The position numbers and the translations under genes were made by a program. From NCBI GenBank assembly GCA_001797335.1, contig MGPE01000006.1, forward strand, positions 279,516-313,105: a DNA stretch of 33,590 bases. The letters run 5' to 3'. This document shows, piece after piece, positions 3,143 through 16,367 of this stretch (positions are counted from its first letter, which is position 1; the number at the start of each line of letters is the position of its first letter). The stretch is from Deltaproteobacteria bacterium GWA2_38_16. Its GTDB lineage: Bacteria; Bdellovibrionota; JACOXK01; 2-02-FULL-40-11. The notes under the pieces are model-generated. The model had not been told where the DNA came from and ran no database searches. It was given only the letters and a program-made list of their open reading frames with translations.

Positions 3143-3170
3143 GTCATCCCGGGCTTGACCCGGGATCTAT
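3143..3170. repeat. Short palindromic dispersed repeat (GTCATCCCGGG type)
   Basis: GTCATCCCGGG-CTTGA-CCCGGGAT forms a near-perfect hairpin (CCCGGG / CCCGGG). The same GTCATCCC...GGGAT layout recurs at 904-930 and, more diverged, at 7412-7442. The stop codon of the minus-strand small membrane protein (TAG, 3167-3169) lies inside this element. Confidence 0.7.
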
Positions 3171-3460
3171 TCTTTCCCTGACAAAATCTTTTCCAACCGC
3201 TCTTCTTCTGAAGCTTTAATATGTTCCTTTGGCTTCTTGTCATTCTGAGGGCTAAAGGCCCGAAGAATCTCGTTTTTTTTGATGAGATCCTTCGCTTTGC
3301 TCAGGATGACAGTATTTTTGGACAGCCTCGACACCTGAAGCACCACTGTCTTTTGAATATGCTCCCACAGTGGTTTTCCCTCCACAGGAACCTGCAACAC
3401 TCCATAGATCGCAGCACAAAGAATAATGATTTTAAAGGGCCATTTTAGAAGTTTAAACAT
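3167..3460 (-). CDS. Small single-pass membrane protein with an in-frame palindromic repeat insert
   Basis: Unrecognised 97-residue protein. An N-terminal signal anchor (MFKLLKWPFKIIILCAAIYG) is followed by VEGKPLWEHIQKTV and a charged tail ending EERLEKILSGKE. Between them lie exactly 24 residues, VILSKAKDL through FSPQND, encoded by the dispersed repeat at 3239-3310. The repeat is 72 bases long, so it keeps the frame. I chose the ATG at 3460 because it begins at the anchor and coincides with the predicted +1 of a good sigma-70 promoter (3467-3495). An upstream ATG at 3490 would add MRLSNRYTRG but lies within that promoter. The stop is inside another repeat (3143-3170). It is divergent from xseA. 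The function is unknown, and the frame may be decaying. Confidence 0.5.
   Translation of the reverse strand: MFKLLKWPFKIIILCAAIYGVLQVPVEGKPLWEHIQKTVVLQVSRLSKNTVILSKAKDLIKKNEILRAFSPQNDKKPKEHIKASEEERLEKILSGKE
3239..3310. repeat. Long palindromic dispersed repeat, inside a coding region
   Basis: 72 bases with terminal inverted repeats GTCATTCTGAG...CTCAGGATGAC and an inner GAATCTC...GAGATCC pair around a T-rich loop. It is the same element as 4828-4900 and 16295-16367. On the minus strand it supplies 24 sense codons to the small membrane protein at 3167-3460. Confidence 0.85.
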
Positions 3461-3466
3461 GCCCCT

Positions 3467-3495
3467 AGTATAGCGGTTTGACAGTCTCATTTCAA
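3467..3495 (-). promoter_or_regulatory. Sigma-70 type promoter, minus strand
   Basis: TTGAAA, a 17-base spacer, then TATACT, read on the minus strand. The predicted +1 is 3460, the A of the ATG of the small membrane protein, so the transcript would be leaderless. On the plus strand a TTGACA (3478-3483) lies inside the same stretch and could serve xseA, but no good -10 follows it. Confidence 0.5.
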
Positions 3496-3516: not shown

Positions 3517-4824
3517 ATGGAAGAAACATCCTTACAGTCACCTTCTGAATCTACGGGGGTCACTTCCCAACGAAAAATCTTAACCGTCAGCGAATTGACG
3601 CGAGATATTAAAACCCTTCTGGAAACCGGTTTTGATTCCATTTGGGTAAAAGGGGAAATCTCTTCTTTTAAAGTTCCCTCGTCTGGCCACTTTTATTTTA
3701 ATTTGAAAGATGAAAAATCGATGCTGGCCTGTGTCATGTTTAAATTTAAAAACCAATATCTTAAATTTGAACTTAAAGACGGACTAGAAGTTATTTGTGG
3801 CGGTCGGATTACACTTTATGAGCCCAGAGGCAGTTATCAACTCTTGGTTGAAACCATAGAGCCCAAAGGCTTAGGAGCTCTTCAGCTTCGATTTGAACAA
3901 CTCAAAGAAAAACTTTCCAAAGAGGGGCTTTTTTCACCAGAACATAAAAAGCCACTCCCTTATCTTCCTCAAAAAATTGCGCTCATTACTTCCCCAACAG
4001 GTGCTGCCATTCAAGATATGCTGAATATCTTAAATCGTCGCTTTTCAAATCTTGAAATTTTATTGGTTCCTGTCTCCGTTCAGGGAGATAAAGCTGCCCC
4101 TGAAATTACAAGAGCCATTGAGCTTGTAAATCAAATGAATGAACACGATGTTATTATTGTGGGGCGCGGAGGAGGGTCTTTAGAAGATCTTTGGGCGTTT
4201 AACGAAGAAATCGTAGCCAGGGCTGTATTTGCTTCCCATATTCCCATTATTTCTGCTGTTGGTCATGAAATTGATTTTACCATTTGTGATTTTGTTGCAG
4301 ATTTAAGAGCCCCCACTCCTTCTGCAGCCGCAGAGCTTGTAGTTAAAAATAAAATTGATTTACAAAAAAATATTTTAAGTCAATTAAATCACTTACGACA
4401 AGCTTTCTTAACTCACGTTACTCGGTATAAAAAACAATTAGCAGAGCTTTCAGGTCGTATCATTGATCCTAGAAGAAAATTAGAAGACTGGAGATTAAGG
4501 CTTTCAGATCTTCAAGAAAGGCTTCATTATACCCTTCTTCAAAATGTTAAAAATGCCAAATCCAACCTTGAAAATCTTTCTCCTAAACTTTCTTCTCAAA
4601 TACATTTAATCTTAGAACGCCATCGCCATCACATTACTCGATTAAAGTCACTTCTTAAAAGCTTAAATCCACTGGCTATTTTAGAAAGGGGATTTAGTAT
4701 TACAAAGATTTTAAAAACAGGGCATATTCTTCGAAAATCCTCTGAGGCAAAACAACAGGATATGGTTTCTATTGAACTTTCTTCAGGAAAATTAATGTGC
4801 GAGATTAAAGAGATAAAAAATTAA
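3517..4824 (+). CDS. xseA: Exodeoxyribonuclease VII large subunit
   Basis: Large subunit of exonuclease VII, the cytoplasmic single-strand DNA exonuclease that acts with the small subunit XseB in repair. The 435-residue length is typical. An N-terminal OB fold (about residues 24-120, VKGEISSFKVPSSGHFYF and IEPKGLGALQLRFE) is followed by the catalytic domain with the signatures ITSPTGAAIQDM, IIVGRGGGSLEDLWAFNEE and ISAVGHEIDFTICDFVADLR. A coiled-coil helical region and the closing LNPLAILERGFSI motif complete it. The ATG has no clear ribosome site. xseB, which often follows, is not in the window: the next gene is lon on the other strand, with a palindromic repeat between the two stops. Confidence 0.97.
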   Translation: MEETSLQSPSESTGVTSQRKILTVSELTRDIKTLLETGFDSIWVKGEISSFKVPSSGHFYFNLKDEKSMLACVMFKFKNQYLKFELKDGLEVICGGRITLYEPRGSYQLLVETIEPKGLGALQLRFEQLKEKLSKEGLFSPEHKKPLPYLPQKIALITSPTGAAIQDMLNILNRRFSNLEILLVPVSVQGDKAAPEITRAIELVNQMNEHDVIIVGRGGGSLEDLWAFNEEIVARAVFASHIPIISAVGHEIDFTICDFVADLRAPTPSAAAELVVKNKIDLQKNILSQLNHLRQAFLTHVTRYKKQLAELSGRIIDPRRKLEDWRLRLSDLQERLHYTLLQNVKNAKSNLENLSPKLSSQIHLILERHRHHITRLKSLLKSLNPLAILERGFSITKILKTGHILRKSSEAKQQDMVSIELSSGKLMCEIKEIKN

Positions 4825-4827
4825 GGT

Positions 4828-4900
4828 GTCATTCTGAGGGAGCAACGCGACCGAAAAATCTCTTTTTCTATAAGAGATCCTTCGCTTTGCTCAGGATGAC
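4828..4900. repeat. Long palindromic dispersed repeat between convergent genes
   Basis: 73 bases, GTCATTCTGAGGGAGC...GCTCAGGATGAC, filling almost all the space between the xseA and lon stops. It can fold as one long hairpin with inner GAAAAATCTC / GAGATCC pairing and a T-rich loop, so it may also act as a two-way terminator. It is the same family as 3239-3310 and 16295-16367. Confidence 0.85.
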
Positions 4901-16294: not shown

Positions 16295-16367
16295 GTCATC
16301 CCGAGCCAAAGGCGAGGGATCTCGTCAATAAAAACGAGATTCTTCGGGCTAACTCCCTCAGAATGAC
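16295..16367. repeat. Long palindromic dispersed repeat
   Basis: 73 bases, GTCATCCCGAG...CCTCAGAATGAC with inner GGATCTCG...CGAGATTC pairing (AATAAA loop region). It is the same family as 3239-3310 and 4828-4900 and begins eight bases after a stop codon. Its hairpin could also end transcription of the preceding gene. Confidence 0.85.

Follow-up and report, generated by a model that had tools for sequence, protein, structure and literature searches.

Repeats and genes of the analysed region

Within the window (the entire stretch of 33,590 nucleotides that was analysed), a small gene for a predicted membrane protein (3167..3460, minus strand) is located next to the divergent gene xseA (3517..4824, plus strand). 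It encodes 97 amino acids when counted from the methionine in common with the orthologue of the related genome G003; the ATG-started open frame reaches position 3490 (3167-3490), and the start codon is to be taken as provisional. The gene holds a repeat (3239..3310) of exactly 72 nt, which runs from GTC to GAC on the plus strand and supplies 24 codons (VILSKAKDLIKKNEILRAFSPQND) to the minus-strand frame, both ends being flush with codon boundaries; sequence and open reading frame (ORF) agree here with an earlier note on this DNA, in which an in-frame repeat of 24 codons was described. The repeat, assigned as a whole to neither strand, is a dimer in which two hairpin units stand head to head (hairpin model matches at 3239-3270, plus, and 3285-3310, minus) and is composed of: (i) a long-loop unit of 33 nt, GTCATTCTGAGGGCTAAAGGCCCGAAGAATCTC (3239..3271, plus strand); (ii) a 12-nt spacer; and (iii) a canonical 27-nt unit of opposite orientation, GTCATCCTGAGCAAAGCGAAGGATCTC (3284..3310, minus strand).

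Two other dimers recognized by sequence and hairpin model (4828..4900 and 16295..16367, likewise without a strand) are 73 nt long and intergenic, as previously reported. The former separates the convergent genes xseA and lon, starting 4 nt past the xseA stop codon and ending 6 nt ahead of the end of lon. The construction of the dimer from a smaller hairpin unit, which is commoner singly and in many cases lies in frame in other genes, was missed in the earlier note, as was a further related unit, GTCATCCCGGGCTTGACCCGGGATCT (3143..3168, plus strand; model match of 18.7 bits, E 0.0012), with an 8-bp stem and a 5-nt loop by inspection. This unit represents a second type of palindrome, and its end overlaps with the TAG stop codon of the small gene that carries 3239-3310. 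An Rfam search of the window gave no match.

For comparison, eight genomes of the class were used, i.e. six genomes of four genera of one family and two of a sister family (the genome of the window is designated G000). Only three orthologues of the small protein were found in the genomes searched, and a Pfam search with its sequence returned nothing. Its N-terminal half is conserved in the syntenic orthologues of G003 and G002, which also neighbour xseA; a second small gene, for a secreted protein, lies beyond. The G003 orthologue carries a different palindrome, GTCATCCCGGGC..CCCGGGATCC (VIPGERSETRDPS), in frame in an apparently equivalent linker, and behind it the tail RPKEMFKASEEEKLKELLS aligns with the C-terminal segment KPKEHIKASEEERLEKILS of the window protein, so that approximately 20 residues past the insert are conserved and the stop codon is found at the equivalent place. 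The orthologue of G002 comprises 64 amino acids, with no insert and no clearly alignable C-terminal tail. The insert-free orthologue that the earlier note called for was thus found, and the two flanking halves belong to one protein insofar as the first is kept in both relatives and the second in G003.

Differences from G003 are fewest at the second codon position and most numerous at the third (16, 8 and 19, and 8, 3 and 13, for positions 1 to 3 of the two gene parts). With a codon model trained on this genome, the ORF scored near zero per codon (-0.06 for the N-terminal part, -0.07 for the insert and +0.03 for the C-terminal part). The small gene appears to be real, with moderate doubt about its tail, and the copy at 3239-3310 is probably translated; it is counted as coding by homology only, and its exact junction is to be taken as provisional.

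Structure of the hairpin unit

The unit follows the pattern GTCAT-Y-CTGAGC..GCGAAG-R-ATCTC, and its commonest form reaches 27 nt, or nine codons, when the usual following C is included. It is open in four of the six frames, all four of which are in use; a bias towards the frame HPERSEGS (13, 5, 4, 7) was not significant (P 0.08). Covariation was analysed with units gathered by a pattern that fixed some positions and left pyrimidine 6 and purine 28 free. The 34 distinct units of the genome fold as one hairpin, with 99.6% of cells paired and 34 cells double-changed, compared with a mean of 9.1 in shuffles, and sliding of the partner gave no comparable signal. Pyrimidine 6 and purine 28 covary (19 U-A and 15 C-G pairs, no mismatch). 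The stem consists of 7 standard pairs and a two-position G-A/A-G step, its first two pairs being A-U and U-A in 34/34 units, and closes on a loop of 3 nt in the short form and of greater length in the long forms. In the alignment of 88 units GTC is invariant and is preceded by T in 46, A in 23, C in 15 and G in 4 cases; the units end with AT-CTC, and the C after ATCT is present in 63/88.

Units in the genome and in coding sequences

A blast-type search of the whole 2.0 Mb genome yielded 42 matches (E<=0.001), far beyond chance, which bears out the earlier description of the repeat as dispersed, and a search with the hairpin model yielded 110 unit matches (E<=0.1). In the genome stretches read around matches, which the census covers without being exhaustive, 66 elements (88 units) were mapped, i.e. 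22 head-to-head dimers, all in +- order, and 44 single units. Most surviving copies are intergenic, often only a few nucleotides from stop codons. Coding status was called with a simple codon model and inspection, without a gene caller, and split genes were left out, so frame-breaking insertions are uncounted in the following numbers. Twenty-three of the 66 elements are internal and in frame in ORFs whose two flanks were taken as coding (for those other than the window copy, on the grounds of codon score or homology or the two together), and a further six form terminal coding segments, comprising three N-terminal signal peptides and three C-termini. Internal positions are occupied by 2/22 dimers vs. 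21/44 single units (Fisher P 0.002), which makes the window copy, as one of two coding dimers, unusual.

Carrier proteins and empty sites

The carriers, mostly housekeeping proteins, include (i) LipB, CarB, CoaX, DapB, ParB, ArgS and MutS, confirmed by NCBIfam, and (ii) LysA, ThiI, LpxK, AroE, a pyruvate-dehydrogenase-type E2, an aldehyde dehydrogenase and NnrD, recognized by eye from sequence and orthologues. In proteins of the relatives, units were recognized by eye in PrmC, MurG, UvrD, MutL, GlmU and a penicillin-binding protein. The LipB carrier reads GVWVHSHPERSEGSLKKIAS, and its relatives, with GVWVENKKIAS, GVWVQDKKIAS and GVWVGSKKIAS, have exactly nine residues fewer; the same nine-residue gap separates it from the solved lipoyltransferase PDB 2qhs. 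The CarB carrier has seven additional residues at the insert in comparison with Escherichia coli CarB (PDB 1bxr). Insert-free orthologues were also found for PrmC, MurG, ParB, DapB, the FeS oxidoreductase and the C-termini of two small proteins.

Further details were observed for some of the carriers. An AroE-like ORF (L065:2298-3212) contains two units and a peptide of another type of repetitive palindromic element (REP; SFPRKRESMDPRLRGDD), i.e. three palindromes, and is perhaps a gene in decay. Units are present in the DNA repair genes for MutS, MutL and UvrD/PcrA (L046, L308, L293, L184), matching a published note on intragenic REPs. In signal peptides of this genome the unit supplies the n-region in the RFFTTFRMT frame (L048:1487-1512, L059:2048-2073 and L196:1990-2015), and in those of relatives it makes up the part close to the cleavage site, read in the VIPSxARDL frame (L164:302-327, L297:784-809, L306:783-808 and L307:799-824). 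Secreted proteins may have recruited the unit repeatedly.

Distribution, recurrence and probable decay across genera

The unit is present in 8/8 genomes of the class examined. Among 114 sampled genomes of the phylum, two further families contain dozens of matches, two genomes contain one each and 102 contain none (E<=1e-5); further matching loci come from one Nitrospinota MAG and from MAGs of Acidobacteria. Tandem runs of units with 31-nt spacing were observed in one genome from a different family of this phylum (G010:C21:4-153 and G010:C56:28984-29071).

Several loops that are hit in G000 are also occupied in related genomes: those of the window protein, CarB, CoaX and ThiI in G003, and those of the FeS protein and LysA in G001. 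Four such coincidences with G003 by independent random insertion have a Poisson estimate of 4e-7, a rough value that uses assumed, generous copy numbers, and either shared permissive loops or shared ancestry fit the recurrence better than chance. At the same place in LysA, G000 has an intact unit, G001 a longer unit at the same codon, G005 a half unit and G003 a 12-nt remnant (AGATC-GATGACA). The four loop loci (L194, L220, L214 and L222) look like stages in the decay of a single insertion, and an old insertion that has been eroding in frame is the likely explanation. The LysA series is what would be expected if every loop occupied in several genera went back to one ancestral insertion, later rewritten or eroded, with no part for independent insertions. 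That general explanation is possible but rather doubtful, as the palindrome types in CarB and the small protein differ between G000 and G003, and the FeS protein carries a unit in G000 and G001 and lacks one in both G004 and G005, which belong to the same genus as G001. Both processes are probable: independent insertion into loops that permit it, and ancestral insertion followed by change.

Comparison with known palindromic repeats

CGTC-tagged REPs occur in several phyla, some of them in frame inside genes; their dimers encode 20-30 residues, many intragenic cases concern DNA repair genes, different REPs occupy about the same recB site in two Xanthomonas species, and RPE-4 and RPE-6 of Rickettsia conorii are tied to this group (Di Nocera et al., 2013; PMC3733652). 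Hypothetical proteins of <120 amino acids were left out of that survey as probably spurious, so the window gene would have been excluded. The group is defined by a terminal CGTC (often TGTC or CCTC), an 8-9 bp stem starting from A-T and T-A, a 4-5 nt loop and a 3-nt tail with the consensus CCA (PMC3733652). The units described here resemble it in being small hairpins, single or in dimers in which the head-to-head order predominates over tail-to-tail; they too are mostly intergenic near 3′ ends, also lie in frame in genes, including DNA repair genes, and have no dedicated transposase, and their coding dimers again add 20-30 residues. The GTC tag and the A-T make-up of the first two stem pairs recall the definition in part. 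The units differ in the base before GTC, which is mostly T (46/88) or A and is C in only 15 cases, in the tail (CTC vs. CCA), in the G-A/A-G step of the stem, in the 3-nt loop of the short form and in the predominance of single units as the coding form. Because the tail and the loop of the short form depart from the definition, the units were not filed as CGTC REPs, although the hairpin plan and the kind of event are alike.

The Rickettsia palindromic elements (RPEs; Ogata and colleagues), as far as they are described in PMC3733652, are likewise dispersed palindromes that occupy in-frame positions in many unrelated proteins. Here too, genes for unrelated proteins carry in-frame insertions that their orthologues lack, and the resemblance to RPEs drawn in the earlier note holds for the kind of event (dispersal and an in-frame peptide), to which the comparison was confined. 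The host is an uncultured lineage and not Rickettsia. RPE-1 is longer than the units of this genome. The intragenic CGTC-type REPs are a precedent for this kind of event. A literature search by peptide or repeat sequence found no relevant paper.

With the GTAG REPs that are mobilised by RAYT transposases, the units share a palindromic structure, dispersal, dimers and positions near stop codons, but they have no GTAG tag, and this genome has no intact Y1 transposase. The Y1 family (PF01797) is represented in G000 by a broken IS200-like copy, with no intact RAYT-type gene, and is absent from G001, G002, G005 and G006, all of which bear the repeat. No hairpin units were present in the sequence surrounding the Y1 genes of G000, G003 and G004; in G007 an intact copy has two units nearby. 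Mobilisation by RAYT was rejected because of the absence of Y1 from these four of the eight repeat-bearing genomes, the broken copy in G000 and the likeness of the G007 copy to an ordinary IS200 TnpA. No candidate transposase for the units was found in the class genomes searched.

Origin and retention of the insert

We consider the window segment very probably to be a tolerated, frame-filtered insertion of a REP-type dimer into the linker of the small protein, with no known function. The 72-nt dimer would have entered where the N-terminal membrane segment, which is conserved, is joined to the C-terminal tail, and would have been kept since it did not close the frame and additional residues are tolerated in the linker. 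It would be one case of a genome-wide spread of ~27-nt units (nine codons), in which (i) a mobilising activity presumably inserts the units, (ii) selection would remove frame-breaking or harmful insertions, and (iii) copies would be retained in tolerant loops. Genic copies would survive if their net length is divisible by three and they sit at a place of variable length, whether a loop, a linker, a terminus or a signal peptide, and would then persist or erode in frame, as in LysA; they are presumably neutral, and the frame appears to be kept by which insertions survive.

A spurious read-through would give the same picture if the real gene were shorter and the repeat an ordinary intergenic REP in its 3′ region, with the frame open since the repeat is open in most frames. 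The tailless G002 orthologue, the weak codon score and the intergenic position of 20/22 dimers agree with it, but the conserved residues past the insert in G003, with an equivalent stop codon and codon-like changes, and the frequency of in-frame insertion of this repeat in well-known genes make it unlikely. The earlier note proposed that this copy, at 72 nt, may have been selected or trimmed to keep the frame open. The lengths of the two intragenic dimers, 66 and 72 nt, are indeed divisible by three, but dimers range from 53 to 75 nt with widely varying spacers, 8/22 are multiples of three (chance, one third) and another 72-nt copy is intergenic; no trimming is visible, it is enough that insertions of a fitting length survived, and the proposal is very unlikely.

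Exaptation of the added peptide to a function in the small protein is highly improbable. It would accord with palindromes in an apparently equivalent linker in two genera and with the recurrence of elements in signal peptides of secreted proteins, but the inserted peptides of the two genera have almost nothing in common and G002 has none, so no peptide sequence is conserved. A broader proposal, that the element is adapted to coding sequence, with a nine-codon unit open in four frames recolonising the same linkers across genera, feeding signal peptides and acting as a recurring source of new protein segments, also seems improbable to us. The element CGTC-1, from the lengths in PMC3733652, is also 27 nt long (4+16+4+3), so a length of nine codons can arise without adaptation to genes.

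In this uncultured lineage, such repeats are carried by CarB, MutS, LipB, ArgS and other core proteins. To our knowledge, protein-coding palindromes are best known from Rickettsia, where their route into genes is unexplained. The set of eight genomes lets insertion, sharing and decay be traced at single sites, as in LysA, so that the entry of repeats into genes and their possible use by proteins become directly testable.

In a few cases, a 5′ half-unit was observed directly ahead of a full unit, in the same orientation and in frame each time (L072:1919, L329:1658, L306:762, UvrD of G005 at L184 and CoaX of G003 at L252). These arrays may hint at the route by which the units are copied.
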